Assembly: GCA_945883625.1 (NCBI GenBank)
Contig: CAMCXW010000001.1
Location: forward strand, 1 to 64,000
DNA: 64,000 bases
Origin: Spirosoma fluviale
GTDB lineage: Bacteria > Bacteroidota > Bacteroidia > Cytophagales > Spirosomataceae
Direction of reading: 5' to 3'
Shown here: piece by piece, positions 1 to 52,527 of the stretch
Layout of the letters: the number at the start of each line of letters is the position of its first letter
Numbering within the stretch: position 1 is the first letter of the stretch
Notes under the pieces: generated by a model
Told to the model about the DNA's origin: nothing
Databases searched by the model: none
The model's input: only the letters and a program-made list of their open reading frames with translations
Translations under genes and position numbers: made by a program

Positions 1-28
1 ACTCTTAATTCTTCACTCTTATTTCTCA
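1..28. repeat. 14-bp tandem repeat, two units, cut by window edge
   Basis: Two adjacent 14-mers, ACTCTTAATTCTTC and ACTCTTATTTCTCA, match at 11 of 14 positions. They end 11 bp before the -7 element of wecB. More units may lie to the left of the window. The sequence is low-complexity pyrimidine-rich, so chance is possible. It is listed because two other short-period repeats in this window also lie next to promoters or in intergenic gaps. Confidence 0.4.
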
Positions 29-39
29 ACTCATTTCCT

Positions 40-76: not shown

Positions 77-1192
77 ATGAAAGTAATTCAGGTAGTCGGC
101 GCACGGCCAAATTTCATGAAAGTCGCACCGCTGCATCGCGCGATTCAAAATCTTGCCAACTGGACTTCCAAAATAGTACATACCGGGCAGCACTTTGACG
201 CTAAAATGAGTGATGTTTTCTTCACGCAACTTGAATTACCCAAACCCGATTTCTTCCTAGGTATCGGCGGAGGTACCCATTCCGAAGTAACAGCCAAAAT
301 CATGTTGGCCTTCGAACCTATTTTATTAGCGGAAAAACCAGATCTTGTCATCGTCGTTGGTGATGTCACCTCCACCCTCGCTTGTACCCTCGTCGCCATC
401 AAAATGGGCATTCCATTAGCGCACGTGGAAGCTGGACTCCGTTCGGGAGACCGGTCCATGCCTGAGGAAATTAATCGGATTTTGACTGATTCTGTGGCCA
501 ATTACCTATTTGTTACCGAACAAAGTGGCATCGACCATTTGAAAAATGAAGGGGTACCCGACGAAAAAGTATTCTTTTCGGGTAACGTGATGATCGATTC
601 ACTTGTGCGCTACCAAGAAAAAGCAAAAACCAGCCCAATTTTAGAAGACCTTGGTCTAACGTCTAACGTCCAGCGTCCAACGTCTTATATAGTCATGACT
701 ATGCACCGCCCGGCCAACGTCGACACGGAGCAAGGACTGAAATCCATTTTACGCCTCATTGAATTAAGTACCTCGCAAACCAAAGTCGTTTTTCCCATCC
801 ACCCACGTACGCGTGCCCACATGGATAAATATGGTTTAAGTGAACAACTGAATAATAACCCGAATTTAATTTTAACCGAGCCTTTAGGCTATTTGGAATT
901 CATCCAATTGATGAGCCATGCGCAAGCGATCTTAACCGATTCCGGTGGTATTCAAGAAGAAACCACCTACCTCGGGGTACCTTGTTTGACATTCCGTGAT
1001 TCCACCGAAAGACCTATAACCGTGACGATGGGAACGAATCAGTTGTTGGCCGACTTAGATCCAAATAAAACATATCAAGCCCTACTAAGCATCTTGCAAG
1101 GACATTGCAAACAAGGTCAAATACCCCCACTTTGGGATGGAAAAGCCGCGGAACGTATCGCACAAACATTAGACGAAATCTATAAAGCCTAA
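77..1192 (+). CDS. wecB: UDP-N-acetylglucosamine 2-epimerase (non-hydrolysing)
   Basis: Cytoplasmic enzyme that converts UDP-GlcNAc to UDP-ManNAc for surface polysaccharide synthesis. At 371 residues it is the usual family length. Family motifs are in order: GARPNFMK (8-15), HTGQH (35-39), HVEAGLRS (116-123), MHRPANV (209-215) and DSGGIQEE near 291. The ATG at 77 is the only sensible start. Its stop codon overlaps the start of the next glycosyltransferase (TAATG), so the three genes form an operon that probably continues a glycan locus to the left. Oddity: codons for residues about 194-204 (LTSNVQRPTS) are made of a 7-bp-period repeat that also fills an intergenic gap at 51.8-51.95 kb; it looks like an in-frame insertion just before the MHRPANV strand. 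Function is probably kept, since all motifs remain. Confidence 0.95.
   Translation: MKVIQVVGARPNFMKVAPLHRAIQNLANWTSKIVHTGQHFDAKMSDVFFTQLELPKPDFFLGIGGGTHSEVTAKIMLAFEPILLAEKPDLVIVVGDVTSTLACTLVAIKMGIPLAHVEAGLRSGDRSMPEEINRILTDSVANYLFVTEQSGIDHLKNEGVPDEKVFFSGNVMIDSLVRYQEKAKTSPILEDLGLTSNVQRPTSYIVMTMHRPANVDTEQGLKSILRLIELSTSQTKVVFPIHPRTRAHMDKYGLSEQLNNNPNLILTEPLGYLEFIQLMSHAQAILTDSGGIQEETTYLGVPCLTFRDSTERPITVTMGTNQLLADLDPNKTYQALLSILQGHCKQGQIPPLWDGKAAERIAQTLDEIYKA
655..689 (+). repeat. GACGYTR 7-bp-period repeat copy inside wecB
   Basis: By eye this 35-mer matches 51920-51954 at 32 of 35 positions on the same strand. It consists of 7-bp units (AACGTCY on this strand; GACGYTR on the other). It keeps the wecB reading frame and encodes a short polar stretch between two conserved regions of the enzyme. 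Confidence 0.8.
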
Positions 1193-18462: not shown

Positions 18463-18492
18463 AAGGCCTCGTTCATCGCGAGGCCTTTTTTT
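18463..18492. terminator. Bidirectional terminator between guaB and hemE
   Basis: AAGGCCTCG and CGAGGCCTT form a perfect 9-bp stem around a 7-base loop. A T-run follows rightward and an A-run precedes it, so it can serve both convergent genes. Its right end touches the hemE stop codon. Confidence 0.85.
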
Positions 18493-19522
18493 ATGCTTGG
18501 TAATTTTGAATCGTATCCACGAAACACTGAACTTTATCGGGGTGAATATCTGGATAAACGCCATGACCTAAGTTGGCAATATAACGCTGCGTACCAAAAG
18601 CCTTCAACATCGCCTTCGTTTCCGCCTCTACTGTTTTGAAATCACCATATAGCGCGCATGGATCTAAGTTGCCTTGTAAGGTTTTATTGGGGCCCACAAT
18701 GTTACGTGATTCTTCAATATCCATATTCCAATCCAATCCGATTGTCGCGCAGTTTAATTGCGCCATTTCTGCACGGGCAAAGAAAGCTCCTTTGGCAAAA
18801 AGTGTTACGGGAACATCCAAAATAGCATCACAAATTTGCTTCAGGTAAGGAGTAGAAAAAGTACTGTATTGAGCTGGGGATAATATTCCTGCCCATGAGT
18901 CAAAGATTTGAAGTAAGTTGGCCCCTGCCCCTACCTGTGCTTTCAAATAAGCAATGGTCGAATCTGTAATTTTTTGCAATAGGGCATGCGCTAACGCAGG
19001 GTCAGCGTAAAGCATTTTTTTCGCTTGTGAGAATGTTTTCGAACCTTTTCCTTCGACCATGTAGCAGAAAATGGTGAAGGGTGCACCGGCAAAGCCAATT
19101 AATGGAACGCGTCCGGCTAATTCTTTTTTGACGATTTTAATGGCGTCCAAAACGTATTTTAAATCTTCTTCGGGATTTGCGTCTCGAATTTTGGCTAAAT
19201 CTGCTTGGGAACGAATCACCTCTGGAAAAACTGGTCCTTTTTGTTCCTCCATCAAATAGGGCAAGCCCATCGCTTCTGGAACAACGAGGATATCGGAAAA
19301 GATAATCGCAGCATCTACACCAAACCGGTCGACCGGCTGTAAAGTCACCTCGGCTGCTAGTTCCGGATTCGTGGCTAGACCAATAAATGAACCGGCTTTC
19401 GCACGTACTTCTCGGTACTCAGGTAAAATCCGTCCCGCTTGTCGCATCACCCAAACAGGGACACGTTCTACAGGTAAGCCTTGCGCGGCACGAAGCAGGA
19501 GGTCGTTTTGAAGTTTTTCCAT
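18491..19522 (-). CDS. hemE: Uroporphyrinogen decarboxylase
   Basis: Decarboxylates the four acetate side chains of uroporphyrinogen III to give coproporphyrinogen III in heme synthesis. 343 residues. Seen: the signature [17 protein letters not shown] near the N-terminus (substrate-binding Arg residues), [13 protein letters not shown] with its catalytic Asp, and [17 protein letters not shown] place the start at ATG 19522 (MEKLQND). The frame stays open for 41 more codons upstream, but only because it runs through the 15-bp repeat array, giving a meaningless GLFSS-like repeat, and it would span the promoter. Transcript probably leaderless: the -7 box ends 8 bases before the ATG. Confidence 0.96.
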
Positions 19523-19530
19523 ATCGAGCA

Positions 19531-19538
19531 CAAAGGTA
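19531..19538 (-). promoter_or_regulatory. hemE -7 element, start site at or near the ATG
   Basis: The minus strand reads TACCTTTG, identical to the ysxC -7 box on the other side of the repeat element. Only 8 bases separate it from the hemE ATG, so the mRNA should have little or no leader. The -33 position falls inside the left 15-bp array and has no TTG. Confidence 0.6.
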
Positions 19539-19547
19539 AAAGAAAAT

Positions 19548-19629
19548 AGTCCGCAGGGAAAGAGTCCGGAGGAAAATAGTCCGAAGGAAGAGAGTTCGGA
19601 GGGGATTAGTCCGAAGTCCGAAGGGATAT
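19548..19629. repeat. Left inverted array of 15-bp repeats
   Basis: AGTCCGNAGG-type units begin at 19548, 19563, 19578, 19593 and 19608 (exactly 15 bp apart), with a 7-bp partial unit and a last one at 19615. Example unit AGTCCGGAGGAAAAT. The shared 10-base core AGTCCGGAGG is the reverse complement of the core in the right array (20051-20215). Confidence 0.93.
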
Positions 19630-19679
19630 CAGTTTGTCGATACAATAGAAAGCAGAAAAATCGTTTGATAAATAAACGT

Positions 19680-20048
19680 ATGCGTGTTTCTAAATTTGAG
19701 GACCTACTTGTTTGGCAAAAGTCTATTGACTTAGCAATTATAGTTTACAAACTATTTGAAAAGAATCAGGATAGGGGGTTTAAAAATCAAATTCAAAGGG
19801 CATCCGTTTCAATTGCAAATAATATCGCTGAGGGCTTTGACCGAAGCTCGGATAAAGAGTTTAAACGGTTTTTATTTATAGCATTAGGCTCCGCAAGTGA
19901 AGTACGTTCAATGTATTATCTGGCATTGAAACTTAACTATGTTTCCACGGAGGAATATATAAAATGCAATAATAGCTTAATTGAAATCTCAAAAATGTTA
20001 AATGGTCTATCTCGATCTCTTAACCGAAACGAAGTAAAGTATCTTTAA
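19680..20048 (+). CDS. Four-helix-bundle protein, 23S rRNA intervening-sequence (S23/IVP) type
   Basis: A 122-residue intact member of the family known from open reading frames inside 23S rRNA intervening sequences and related to the Avd accessory protein of diversity-generating retroelements. Seen: [19 protein letters not shown] (helix 1), [19 protein letters not shown] (helix 2), [19 protein letters not shown] (helix 3) and the hydrophobic helix-4 segment. The molecular role of this family is not established; basic pentamers that bind nucleic acid are reported for relatives. ATG 19680 begins MRVSKFEDL; a TTG five codons upstream is possible. No reverse transcriptase, variable repeat or rRNA is nearby. 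It lies between two inverted 15-bp arrays. No -7 box was found. Confidence 0.9.
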
Positions 20049-20050
20049 GC

Positions 20051-20215
20051 CTCAGGACTTATCTCCTCCGGACTCCTTCCCTACGGACTTCACCCCTACG
20101 GACTTCACCCCTACGGACTAACCCCCTTCAGACTACCTCCCTTCAGACTACCTCCCTCCGGACTAACCCCCTCCGGACTAACCCCCTCCGGACTACACCC
20201 CTCCGGACTTCGGCC
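20051..20215. repeat. Right inverted array of 15-bp repeats
   Basis: Eleven units of exactly 15 bp, with GACT at 20056, 20071 and so on to 20206. Consensus CTCCGGACTAACCCC. Neighbouring units are often identical pairs: 20081 and 20096; 20126 and 20141; 20156 and 20171, a sign of recent unit duplication. The last unit runs into TTCGGCC plus a T-run, which could end transcription of the four-helix-bundle gene. Confidence 0.95.
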
Positions 20216-49228: not shown

Positions 49229-50542
49229 ATGCGGAACGATTTGATCATTGGACTCGATATTGGTAGTTCATTTATAAAGGCTGTAGCAGGCAAGCAAAAT
49301 GCACAAGGTTTATTAGAGATTGTTGCGACAGGAAAAGCTTCTACGACAGGCTTTATTTTACATGGTGAAATCGTCAATATCAATAAAACTTCGGCCGCTA
49401 TATCTGAGGCAATTAATCAAATCGCGGTAGCACTTCCCGGGAAGACTAAAGAGTATTATTTCTCATCCAACTTGTCTGGCAGTCATATCAATGTAAGTCC
49501 TTATACGATTACGAAACAGCGTAAAAATACATCTGATCCGGTAACTGTAAAGGAGATTTTAGAGATTACGGAGGAGGCAAAAAAATCAATTTCGGAGAAG
49601 AATCCGTGTGTATTACACACATTACCGATCGGTTTTGTCGTGGGTTCTTTGCCTGAAACTTTGGATCCTATTGGCCAAGTGGGCGCACGACTGCAAGGAG
49701 ATTTTATGGTGATTACCGCACGTCAAGATAAATTCGATTTATTCCGAAAAACCTTAGCATCTGCTGAGTCTGATCACATTAAAGGGGGTAATTTATATTT
49801 TAGTCCATTAGCAAGTTCTAGTTCCGTTTTAAGTGCAGAGGAAAAGCAGCAAGGGGTTGTATTAGTGGATATCGGCAGTGGAACGACTGAAATAAGTATT
49901 TTTCAAAATAAGCGATTGAAGCACGCCACCGTTTTAAACTGGGGTGGAGATCGCATAACTGAAGATATTAAAGTGGCTCTTGATGTGACCTTAGAGCATG
50001 CAGAAGCACTCAAGGTTAATTTCGGTTCTGCCTTACAAAAATTAATTGAGATCAATGAAGTTGTCATGATTCCAGGCATGGCGGGACGTAAACCGACGCC
50101 TGTTTCAGTACGGAATTTGGCGATAATTATTGAGGAGCGCATGAAGGAATTAGCAGCAATTATTGTTGCTGAAATTCAAAAAACAACGAATATCACCCCA
50201 TTACGTGGCGGTATCGTCCTTTGCGGCGGCGGAGCAACCTTACCATATATCGATGAATTATTCCAAAAAGTTACGGAGCTTGAGACGCGCGTCGGCATAC
50301 CTAATGCCACCGCCTCAGACGAAATCAAGGACCCATCTTACGCTACATCGGTAGGTCTTGTCCAAGTTTATTTTGACCAACTTGAAAATTCAGATGATTC
50401 AGCGCCTGAGACAAGTTCTCAGTCTGAGTATAGCACAGTAAATGGGAATTCAACGAAGCAAAAACCACCATCAATTAAATCGATTTTTGGTAGACTAGTG
50501 GAATCGCTTGTTGGCAGTGATGAAGAAGGCGGAGAATATTAG
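49229..50542 (+). CDS. ftsA: Cell-division protein FtsA
   Basis: Actin-like membrane anchor for FtsZ. 437 residues from ATG 49229 (MRNDLIIGLDIGSS); upstream in-frame codons from 49193 are not conserved. Seen: phosphate-1 loop GLDIGSSFIKAVAG, the SHS2 insertion, VLVDIGSGTTEISIF (phosphate-2) and GGIVLCGGGATLPYIDELF (adenosine). A charged Ser/Glu-rich C-terminal extension (about 380-437) ends in GSDEEGGEY; the usual amphipathic helix is probably in SIKSIFGRLVESLVG. ftsZ, nearly always next, is missing; a convergent helicase gene overlaps the stop. Confidence 0.95.
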   Translation: MRNDLIIGLDIGSSFIKAVAGKQNAQGLLEIVATGKASTTGFILHGEIVNINKTSAAISEAINQIAVALPGKTKEYYFSSNLSGSHINVSPYTITKQRKNTSDPVTVKEILEITEEAKKSISEKNPCVLHTLPIGFVVGSLPETLDPIGQVGARLQGDFMVITARQDKFDLFRKTLASAESDHIKGGNLYFSPLASSSSVLSAEEKQQGVVLVDIGSGTTEISIFQNKRLKHATVLNWGGDRITEDIKVALDVTLEHAEALKVNFGSALQKLIEINEVVMIPGMAGRKPTPVSVRNLAIIIEERMKELAAIIVAEIQKTTNITPLRGGIVLCGGGATLPYIDELFQKVTELETRVGIPNATASDEIKDPSYATSVGLVQVYFDQLENSDDSAPETSSQSEYSTVNGNSTKQKPPSIKSIFGRLVESLVGSDEEGGEY

Positions 50543-51768
50543 TCCTTTTTTCGCCACGGTTTTTTCTTGCCTCCTTTGTTGAAACCTCCACCTGAAAAAG
50601 CAGGCTTTTTTGTCTCTGGGGAATAATCTGGAACAGGGCCAAATTCTTCTGGAACCGGTGATTTGGTTACTTCTTTTTCCAATAAGCGTTCAATCGCGGC
50701 GAATTTCCGTTGCTCAGCTTCTGTAATTAATGTGTAGGCAGTACCTTTTGTCTGCGCGCGGGCTGTTCGACCAATCCGGTGAATGTAATCTTCCCCGTCA
50801 TTTGGTACATCATAATTCACGACTAATTCTATTTCATCGATATCAATACCCCGGCTTAATATATCCGTTGCCACCAAAATCTTGGTCTTCTTATTCCTAA
50901 AATCTTGCAATACTTGCTCGCGTACTTCTTGCTCCAAATCCGAATGAATTTCCTCAACCGAGAACCGTGCACGCTTTAAGTCGGCCGTCAACGATTTTAC
51001 ATTCTGCTTGCGAGAACAAAAAACAATCACACGGGTATAATCTTGGCGTTTCAATAAATGTTTCACCAAAGGACTTTTTTGATTTTCATACACCACAAAG
51101 GCTTCTTGAACAATGGCCTCTGGGGGTTTTGAAACTGCGATATTTACTTCGACAGGATTTTGCATCAACTTACGAGCGAGGTCGCGCATTTTAGGCGGCA
51201 TGGTCGCTGAAAACAAGAGATTTTGACGCACCTTGGGTAAATGTCCCGTAATTTTCATTAGGTCATCGTGAAAGCCCATGTCCAACATCCGGTCGGCCTC
51301 ATCAAGTACCAAATATTTTACATGGGACAAATCGACATACCCCATATTTAAATGGGCAATCATGCGGCCAGGCGTACACACAACGAGATCTACCCCAGAC
51401 GTCAACGCATTTTTTTCTGTTGTGAATGAGTTTCCATCACCACCACCATAAACTGGCATGCAACTAACATTAGTGAAGTAACCCAAACCTTCCATATTCC
51501 CAGCGATCTGCACGGCAAGTTCTCGGGTTGGCACAATAATCAATGCATTGATATGCGCATCTGAATGATCTTCAGTTAAGATTTTATGGATGATCGGTAA
51601 TAAAAAAGCGGCTGTCTTTCCTGTACCTGTCTGCGCCGAAGCTAAGACATCTTGCCCAGCTAAAATCGGCTTCATCACCTGCTCTTGAACCGGCGTGGCT
51701 GTTTTATAGCCCATGGAATCAATACCCTCTAATAATCTTTCGGCTAAGCCAAGTTCTTTAAATGTCAA
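50539..51768 (-). CDS. rhlE: DEAD-box RNA helicase, RhlE-like
   Basis: ATP-dependent RNA helicase of 409 residues. Motifs in order: Q motif FKELGL and TPVQEQ, I SAQTGTGKTAAF, Ia PTRELAVQ, II VLDEADRMLDMGF, III SATMPP, V ATDILSRGIDID, VI HRIGRTAR. The C-terminal tail is Gly/Lys-rich (SGGGFNKGGKKKPWRKKD), good for RNA binding. The start is TTG at 51768: no ATG fits the Q motif, and a stop codon lies three codons further up. The start is just 15 bases from the 7-bp-period repeats that fill the upstream gap. It shares stop bases with ftsA (TTAG). Confidence 0.94.
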   Translation of the reverse strand: MTFKELGLAERLLEGIDSMGYKTATPVQEQVMKPILAGQDVLASAQTGTGKTAAFLLPIIHKILTEDHSDAHINALIIVPTRELAVQIAGNMEGLGYFTNVSCMPVYGGGDGNSFTTEKNALTSGVDLVVCTPGRMIAHLNMGYVDLSHVKYLVLDEADRMLDMGFHDDLMKITGHLPKVRQNLLFSATMPPKMRDLARKLMQNPVEVNIAVSKPPEAIVQEAFVVYENQKSPLVKHLLKRQDYTRVIVFCSRKQNVKSLTADLKRARFSVEEIHSDLEQEVREQVLQDFRNKKTKILVATDILSRGIDIDEIELVVNYDVPNDGEDYIHRIGRTARAQTKGTAYTLITEAEQRKFAAIERLLEKEVTKSPVPEEFGPVPDYSPETKKPAFSGGGFNKGGKKKPWRKKD

Positions 51769-51782
51769 AATGAATTATTTAA

Positions 51783-51913
51783 GACTTTAGACGCTGGACG
51801 TTGGACCTTAAACCAATGACAACATGTAAAATCATATGAAATAAATTAGACTTTAGACGTTGGACGCTGGACGTTAGACCAAGTGAAACATGTAAAATCG
51901 TTTGTAAAAATTT
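51783..51913. repeat. 66-bp direct duplication containing GACGYTR units
   Basis: Two similar blocks begin with GACTTTAGACG at 51783 and 51849. Each holds a run of 7-bp units (GACGTTG, GACGCTG, GACGTTA), a connecting piece with AACATGTAAAATC and an A/T-rich tail. They occupy most of the 180-bp gap between rhlE and gmhA. Confidence 0.85.
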
Positions 51914-51919
51914 AATACT

Positions 51920-51954
51920 TCTAACGTCTGACGTCTAGCGTCCAACGTCTAATA
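51920..51954. repeat. Inverted copy of the GACGYTR repeat, overlapping the gmhA stop
   Basis: The reverse complement of this block matches the second direct block (51854-51879) apart from one extra unit, so the two could form a long hairpin with a loop of about 40 bases. It also matches 655-689 in wecB at 32 of 35 positions. The gmhA stop codon (51949-51951) lies inside it. Confidence 0.85.
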
Positions 51955-52527
51955 ACCCATTTCCTTTTCAATCAACTGAATCAGAATATGAATCACTTTA
52001 ATATGAATCTCTTGAATGCGATCTGCGTAACCAAAATGGTCCACGCGCACTTCGAATACGTTTTCGAAGGAGGCCAACTGACCGCCATCTTTTCCCGTTA
52101 GTAAAACGACAGCCATGCCTTTGGCTTGCGCAGCTTTTACAGCTTCAATGATGTTTACAGAATTACCGCTGGTTGATAGTCCAAACAACACATCACCCGC
52201 ATTTCCTAATCCCTCAATAAACCTAGAGAACACATAATTATACCCAAAATCATTACTTACACAGGATATATGCGAAGGATCCGAAATCGCCATCGCAGCC
52301 AAAGCTGGTCGGTTTTCTCGGTAACGGCCCGACAACTCCTCCGCGAAATGCATGGCATCGCAATGGCTTCCACCATTTCCACAAGCAATGATTTTTTTGC
52401 CTTGTTGGAGTGCGCCAACCAAACATTTTGCTGCATTTTCGATGGATTGAATTTTAGCTGGATTACTAAAAAACTGATCTAAAACTTGTTGGGCTTCCTG
52501 AAGATTGGCTTGAATAATATCTTTCAA
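51949..52527 (-). CDS. gmhA: Sedoheptulose 7-phosphate isomerase
   Basis: First step of heptose synthesis for LPS: sedoheptulose-7-phosphate to D-glycero-D-manno-heptose-7-phosphate. 192 residues, SIS domain. Seen: [26 protein letters not shown] (phosphate loop, His and Glu at the active site), [17 protein letters not shown] and [14 protein letters not shown]. Its stop codon is supplied by the inverted GACGYTR repeat copy, so the last residues (EMGY) may have been trimmed or replaced when the repeat arrived. No other heptose gene is close by. Confidence 0.93.

Follow-up and report, generated by a model that had tools for sequence, protein, structure and literature searches.

The window, as we call the whole 64,000-nucleotide stretch analysed here, raises the question of how a short repeat that lies mostly between genes came to be read as part of an enzyme. 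The initial annotation had noticed that 35 bases of wecB (655-689) match 51920-51954 on the same strand. It had proposed that an otherwise intergenic repeat entered this coding region without breaking it. The match was recovered at 32 of 35 positions (91%), and the frame is the one claimed, the array encoding LTSNVQRPTS between DLG and YIVMTMHRPANV. The observation is confirmed, and it is larger than first stated.

Results

A heptad array read in frame within wecB

WecB matched the TIGR00236 equivalog at 325.6 bits (cut-off 210.15, span 1-365), and the protein has a single match in the source genome (G000), none other being found there. Residues D96, E118, E131 and H210, which we take to be the catalytic Asp, the two Glu and the His (positions as in E. 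coli), are invariant in alignments A1 and A2. The protein is 89% identical to that of a Cytophagaceae MAG (L194), 86% to that of another MAG (L195) and 80% to that of Aquirufa beregesia (L196); judging from these identities, we refer to the genus of G000 as the Aquirufa group. The features discussed below are collected in Table 1.

Table 1. Coordinates of the features in the window, and related loci in the genus.
Feature	Position	Strand	Basis or remark
Short tandem repeat adjoining wecB upstream	1..32	.	TRF period 14; ACTCTTA-like heptads by eye
wecB, non-hydrolysing UDP-GlcNAc 2-epimerase	77..1192	+	ORF; TIGR00236; PF02350
In-frame heptad array in wecB	654..687	+	TRF 654-685; profile match; loop comparison
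Left arm, short-repeat array, GGACT core, period 15/30	19542..19616	.	TRF; inverted pairs
PF05635 gene (23S rRNA-intervening sequence protein / four helix bundle)	19665..20048	+	PF05635; TIGR02436
Right arm, inverted relative to 19542-19616	20050..20210	.	TRF; inverted pairs
DEAD-box helicase gene	50539..51768	-	ORF; PF00270, PF00271
Dispersed array, same heptad as wecB, between gmhA and the helicase gene	51780..51810	-	pattern and model matches
Second array	51846..51879	-	inverted pair; model match
Third array, the partner copy of the initial annotation	51926..51952	+	minus strand starts with the gmhA TAG stop
gmhA, sedoheptulose 7-phosphate isomerase; 3' end bears the array	51949..52527	-	ORF; NF001628 over cut-off
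Genus PF05635 loci with inverted arrays	L166 (G000, GTCYARC), L178 (G019), L103 (G023), L122 (G014), L402 (G036, beside wecB)

TRF resolved the wecB array into 4.6 units of GTCTAAC, namely GTCTAAC twice, GTCCAGC, GTCCAAC and a partial GTCT, which belong to a family written GTCYARC. An array made of GTCTAAC alone is interrupted by stops in all six reading frames, and one of GTCCAAC in none. In wecB, both the reading frame and the unit variants of the array are such that no stop arises. Its loop falls between a helix ending at residue 191 and a strand starting at residue 205, and the AlphaFold model of WecB (mean pLDDT 90.9) has its sole stretch below 50 at residues 198-200, within the repeat. 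The loop of G000 has the base length plus 5 residues. Against the three solved relatives shown, a 5-residue gap opens at the loop in the two best alignments and none in the third. The expectation that relatives need only a short loop was borne out, since 25 of the 27 A2 sequences besides P0001 and the two nearest rows have the base length; the A2 sequences L203 and L218 have a loop a few residues longer. Close WecB homologues do not have a common unrelated loop of equal length.

The heptad is dispersed through the genome

The G000 assembly comprises 2.3 Mb in 86 contigs and is 88.8% complete. A 17-base repeat pattern (at most 3 mismatches) matched the window 12 times against 0.19 expected, and none of 100 shuffles reached 12. 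In the whole genome, a like pattern (at most 2 mismatches) gave 142 + 185 = 327 overlapping matches and its reversal gave 0. Applied to 150 of 395 candidates, a 35-position sequence model derived from 23 arrays, that of wecB among them, found at least 110 matches (E ≤ 0.01), with the wecB array 11th among the matches listed. By either search, the repeat has many further copies.

The matches merge into at least 76 arrays at 50 sites. Placement was judged against open reading frames of at least 100 codons, with a gene-end distance of 40 bp. Among arrays no more than 40 bp from the 3' end of a gene, 54 have the TAG-bearing strand in the sense of the gene and 2 have it opposite (p = 4e-14). Of the remaining arrays, five have only a 5' end nearby, 14 have another position and one lies at least 40 bp inside an open reading frame. 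This one is the array of wecB, so that the repeat is indeed otherwise nearly intergenic, but another array overlaps the end of a NuoI-like open reading frame. Some genes terminate at the first TAG of an array, for example gmhA in the window. Of neighbouring arrays, 21 pairs are facing, 1 pair is divergent and 4 pairs share one direction; many dispersed arrays thus stand in facing pairs able to form hairpins. The arrays have no fixed length, and a comparison of 43 array starts gave no common left edge. A CTTGG edge common to wecB and one intergenic array had been considered as a sign of the donor; it was dropped, and nothing was made of it, because those 43 starts have no common edge.

Among 390 genomes searched, GTCYARC repeats were also frequent (25-82 matches) in G051, G082, G136, G261 and G267, which belong to other genera; the remaining non-congeneric genomes had no match or at most 7. 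The reversed control (CTGCRAY heptads) gave 132, 24 and 10 matches in G052, G213 and G325 of the same order, which are apparently independent heptad families.

The WecB loop varies across the genus

The genus sample consisted of G000 and 37 other genomes (38), and the wecB loop was read in 29. The loop has 18 residues in 11 genes and is longer in 18, with additions of 5 (three genes), 7 (six), 14 (four) and 21, 28, 30, 34 and 56 residues (one each). In an alignment of 28 WecB sequences, it is the sole inner site with large indels. Because a 7-bp unit must keep the frame, expanded loops would be expected to be multiples of 7 residues (three heptads, 21 bp), and 13 of the 18 are. The three loops with 5 additional residues are the GTCYARC ones, those with 30 and 34 hold palindromes, and in loops with GACT-type heptads growth is by 21 bp. 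Heptads are absent or weak in the +7 or +14 loops of G016, G028, G032, G018 and G025, and the +14 loop of G029 carries a palindrome.

Twelve of the 29 loops were typed by eye; 16 were left untyped and that of G036 is a further type. In all 12, the repeat of the loop also occurs elsewhere in the same genome: GTCYARC in G000, G022 and G031 (3/3), SGACTNN in G011, G012, G002, G027, G019 and, at base length, G035 (6/6), and a palindrome in G001, G010 and G029 (3/3). The agreement between loop and genome type has p values of 0.005, 0.001 and 0.06, respectively, which are not corrected for kinship, and the agreement is partly kinship. The six SGACTNN genomes have 4-75 matches each, 1-8 of them in the wecB loop and the remainder elsewhere; the loop of G035 reads as GACTAGC units. 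For the loop repeat of G036, a pattern gave 25 matches in that genome (16 in wecB) against 3 for the reversed control, and looser matches were found on two other contigs.

On a tree calculated without the loop, its length changed at least 15 times, and changes between base and expanded state numbered at least 5. The sister pairs G000/G006 and G031/G035 differ in the loop. G006 has a loop of base length, and G000 differs from it by the replacement of a stretch together with 15 additional bp, not by a clean insertion. All six members of one clade (G005, G015, G017, G020, G024 and G033) have the base length. In 14 of the 29 wecB genes, no segment elsewhere in the gene equals the 7-bp periodicity of the loop. 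The gene of G035 contains an N run and was left out of this judgement, a score of 28 elsewhere in it being an artefact of that run. The base-length loops of G006 (16 of 28) and G014 (14 of 28) already exceed the remainder of the gene in 7-bp periodicity; some of the pattern can therefore be explained by growth in place.

The dispersed palindrome, GACGCGAAGTATCGCGTC, was seen in 19 of the 38 genus genomes (at most 1 mismatch) and in frame in three WecB loops; loci that carry it are L091, L090, L036 and L170 (5513-5530).

A RAYT-type transposase was considered as the driver of the heptads and rejected. PF01797 was found in 12 of the 38 congeners and in none of the heptad-rich ones (G000, G003, G006, G011, G012, G014, G019, G022 and G031). 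The search of G000 for RAYT (Y1_Tnp, PF01797) gave 0 matches at E ≤ 0.001 in an assembly that is about 89% complete, which makes absence there uncertain. Weak Y1_Tnp-like matches, C-terminal in the model (from position 31 or 40-41 as far as 121), were seen in G001, G004, G009, G010, G029, G032 and G034. These genomes all have the palindrome, which may be kinship. A weak PF01797 match of similar frame length, covering 6-119, was seen in G017, a genome without the palindrome.

Heptads at a non-coding site and in other proteins

The gap between gmhA and the helicase gene holds three arrays (Table 1). A stretch of 25 nt in the second (51855-51879) is the exact complement of wecB 661-685, and the gap 51769-51960 folds with z = -6.5. 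Compared by eye, the gap contains GTCYARC-type arrays with differing unit numbers in G000, G003, G006, G022 and G059, and other heptads at the same place in G031 (AGAGTTA) and G035 (GACTAGC). The AGAGTTA heptads of G031 resemble the short repeat upstream of wecB in the window. The two genes fall on separate contigs in G014 and G017, and G011 gave no gene match there. As in WecB, the place is kept and the heptad is swapped.

A NuoI-like iron-sulphur protein, which scores below the NuoI cut-offs, has a tail of KPAFKPSFKPK units. Its tail was read in 30 genomes, the repeat-rich G022 and G031 not being among them. The 7-bp score of the tail linkers is 28-35 of 42 in G000, G003, G006, G059, G011 and G035, all six of which have GTCYARC arrays, and at most 18 of 42 in the other 24. 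NVQRPTS, the peptide word of the GTCYARC loops of WecB, also occurs in the tail of G006. We counted L155 as coding because its repeat tail follows conserved iron-sulphur domains.

Besides wecB, four open reading frames carry in-frame arrays; these are located in a tail, in an internal loop, in a linker or behind a signal-like start. In addition to the NuoI-like protein, heptads are in frame in an AMP-binding enzyme, an AcrB-like/OEP open reading frame and a TonB receptor of G019; the four G019 open reading frames were drawn from 14 loci of that genome, not from the whole of it. The rule used to call open reading frames may have placed the starts of L170 and L187 too far upstream; L187 was accepted as coding on account of the conserved TonB-receptor domains further on in its frame. 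In this TonB receptor (L187, 2305-4434), two heptad families are in frame after a signal-like start, and by eye every third unit seems to avoid an in-frame TAG. The loop of the AMP-binding enzyme has the base length in G007, G012 and G030, is 7 residues longer in G008 and 14 in G019, and contains an N run in G021; by eye, the other 23 orthologues have no such loop. Both the NuoI-like tail and the AMP-binding loop behave like the WecB loop.

A PF05635 gene between inverted arrays

A second, related kind of short-repeat array in the window encloses a PF05635 gene (Table 1), whose protein matches the family at 119.6 bits (8.4e-35, cut-off 33.8) and also matches TIGR02436. Of its inverted arms, 19547-19616 and 20111-20180 agree at 76% over 70 nt, and 19548-19587 and 20050-20089 at 83% over 40 nt. 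The gene lies between hemE (TIGR01464) and yihA/ysxC (TIGR03598), not inside a 23S rRNA gene. Begun at its first TTG, the hemE open reading frame (18491-19645) would include the left repeat arm; its true start is probably a later ATG. Different heptads were seen in the hemE-ysxC neighbourhood of G014, G019 and G023.

Among 402 loci, five more PF05635 loci of the genus were found, each between inverted arrays; they were chosen for their arrays and hence are no independent evidence. For G000 and G019, the repeat of the arms is the dispersed repeat. L256 (a Bacteroidales MAG) and L234 (an Ignavibacteriales MAG, with the PF05635 gene lying in two frames), two loci chosen for WecB, have inverted heptad arms at a PF05635 gene. 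Phage records gave no PF05635 match, and a single-sequence query of viral contigs gave 39 pattern matches, none of which was confirmed.

We also examined plasmid genes picked without regard to repeats. The window PF05635 protein matched 24 plasmid records, of which 17 were examined; H5, H10, H12, H13, H16 and H19 were omitted as equal in score and identity to an examined record, and H24 because it matched in part only. Each of the 17 genes exceeds the PF05635 cut-off, the split gene of L418 being counted as one unit. Control genes were the 151 other coding sequences with flanks inside the stretches, minus 32 whose flanks touch a PF05635 unit. Inverted arms (score at least 14, between 250-bp flanks) were found at 11 of the 17 PF05635 genes, the other 6 having no inverted match, whereas such arms occur in 1 of 425 random intervals and at 3 of the 119 control genes (p = 8e-10), and heptads on at least one side at 16 of 17 against 29 of 425 intervals and 13 of 119 other genes (p = 4e-12); the records are mostly cyanobacterial and some are related, so that they are not fully independent and these p values are too small. 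In the PF05635 flanks, the mean best score for period 7 was 22.4 of 28, and periods other than 7 and 14 scored 13-15. Exceptions are the Picosynechococcus copy (period 8), the Stanieria copy (mixed) and the window copy (15). Eight of the 17 proteins also match Pfam bAvd, below its cut-off. Some of the cyanobacterial genes (plasmids L403-L419) were seen inside operons, between cas6 and cas4 (L404, L410), between the genes for Cas10 and Cmr3 (L408) and between two ribonucleotide reductase genes (L407).

Discussion

We consider it probable that wecB holds, in frame, a copy of a dispersed 7-bp repeat, and that a tolerant WecB loop has been rewritten repeatedly by repeats of its own genome through template exchange, followed by slippage under selection for the frame, the arrays perhaps being gene-less derivatives of PF05635 elements. 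In this freshwater bacterial group, dispersed heptads have apparently entered one tolerant WecB loop again and again, by replacement and by growth in place. The earlier interpretation of a dispersed repeat inside a coding region is supported, and stands strengthened; its entry without breaking the gene holds, but the single insertion gives way to a loop refilled repeatedly.

In the mechanism that we propose, the WecB stretch between residues 191 and 205 tolerates extra residues and for this reason has, as its pattern shows, been rewritten repeatedly in different species. The shared loop and genome types suggest that the new sequence is copied from short repeats dispersed in the same genome. 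Entry would most likely occur by template exchange (gene conversion) from a dispersed array rather than by cut-and-paste transposition, into a loop whose codons may already resemble the incoming array. The array in the loop would then grow or shrink by slippage. Loop lengths in steps of three units (21 bp, 7 residues) are consistent with selection for the frame, and the stop content of the units with selection for those that lack in-frame stops, such as GTCCAAC. The dispersed arrays themselves may derive, gene-less, from an element that in its full form is a PF05635 gene between inverted arrays, a causal role to which their association points. No genome pairs differing by one array alone were seen, and no event was caught in the act.

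Part of this pattern could arise without any donor. By purely local slippage, the codons of DLGLxTSDY would happen to be GACT heptads, and the likeness to dispersed arrays would reflect a common mutational bias. The 7-periodic base-length loops of G006 and G014, the GACTAGC units of G035 and the 21-bp growth of GACT-kind loops are all in keeping with this. However, the GTCYARC loops of G000, G022 and G031 consist of a different heptad that is dispersed in those genomes, their NVQRPTS recurs in the NuoI-like tail of G006, and slippage would not produce the dispersed palindrome found in G001, G010 and G029, so we regard purely local slippage as rather unlikely. The palindrome loops of G001 and G010, which hold units found elsewhere in their own genomes, might instead suggest a one-off insertion into wecB of a discrete mobile unit with defined ends. 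This is very unlikely, as the stretch is replaced and 15 bp longer relative to G006 rather than cleanly inserted, the heptad arrays have neither a fixed length nor a common left edge in 43 starts, and the gmhA site shows changes of unit number and swaps of motif instead of a clean unit.

The arrays in proteins might also be kept for a protein function, for example as a variable linker, and their occurrence in four further open reading frames (tail, inner loop, linker and after a signal-like start) would fit such a role. We think this extremely unlikely, since 11 of the 29 genes, including all six of one clade, have the base-length loop, and the sole low-confidence stretch of the predicted AlphaFold structure is at this place. 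Chance or an assembly artefact, for which the fragmentation of the genome into 86 contigs might speak, has a practically negligible probability: the pattern counts exceed the shuffled and reversed controls, which already refutes it, and the pattern recurs in other assemblies, such as G012 and G019 with about 10 contigs each. Repeated rewriting of the loop by dispersed repeats is the reading that we retain.

Several known systems resemble these arrays in part. Cyanobacterial STRRs are heptanucleotide tandem repeats. Rickettsia palindromic elements have a defined palindromic unit of about 100-150 bp, which is inserted in frame at tolerated places in proteins, and 23S rRNA intervening sequences contain a PF05635 gene between complementary arms. 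Like the Rickettsia elements, the heptads have in-frame copies in unrelated proteins (wecB and the NuoI-like tail; in G019, the AMP-binding enzyme, the AcrB-like/OEP open reading frame and the TonB receptor); unlike them, they have no fixed palindromic unit or length, a palindrome being present only in the loops of G001, G010 and G029. The window PF05635 gene, with its domain above the cut-off, lies between complementary arms as in the intervening sequences, but it stands between protein genes and its arms are short tandem arrays.

In the parts of the published reports consulted, TAACTGA repeats are described from Beggiatoaceae, Cyanobacteria and some Bacteroidetes, some inside open reading frames and there mainly at protein edges, and in a Beggiatoaceae genome mostly just upstream of start codons (PMC4679880); GGGNATC heptad repeats are described from Xanthomonas and Nostoc (PMC4692102). 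The arrays studied here share with heptanucleotide repeats, as those parts present them, the 7-bp units, the many dispersed copies and a mostly intergenic position with some copies in open reading frames. They differ in lying at 3' ends, often in facing pairs, in having a unit that differs by species, and in the recurrent refilling of one internal loop of an enzyme. REP/REPIN sequences, in the sections seen, lie downstream of genes, between convergent open reading frames and in inverted pairs, occasionally inside genes (PMC3733652). The 3'-end location (54 versus 2) and the inverted pairs (21 versus 1) agree with that description, but the unit here is a non-palindromic heptad instead of a 20-40 bp palindrome, and G000 has no PF01797 match. 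Borg tandem repeats, according to the portion available, change rapidly and make disordered protein stretches, with in-frame unit lengths divisible by three (PMC9879509). Rapid change and disordered stretches are found here as well; unlike in that account, the unit is 7 and only triples fit the frame. Dispersed repeats read in frame are a kind already known.

The association of PF05635 genes with inverted arrays is the most novel part of our findings. In the part of the literature covered, which included no preprints, we found no report linking PF05635-like proteins with heptamer or tandem repeats, and none on tandem repeats in Aquirufa. PF05635 resembles Avd of diversity-generating retroelements, which is needed for retrohoming, as stated in the section seen (PMC10053308); the same paper cites Xcc0516 of Xanthomonas campestris, a protein of the PF05635 type with a known structure. 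We infer from the association that PF05635 spreads the arrays, and it may prove categorically new if the protein acts on them. A broader proposal, possible but held tentatively, is that a widespread element exists whose complete version is a PF05635 gene with inverted short arrays, mostly of 7-bp units, on its two sides. Its protein would act with the RNA or DNA hairpin of the arrays to copy them; the heptads of cyanobacteria, Xanthomonas and Bacteroidota would be gene-less offspring, and in-frame arrays such as that of WecB would be spill-over.

Genome-wide repeat turnover thus leaks into proteins in a form that can be counted, as at least 15 length changes of one loop in 29 genes. The association furthermore links two unexplained things, the spread of bacterial heptanucleotide repeats and the role of PF05635/Avd-like proteins outside retroelements.
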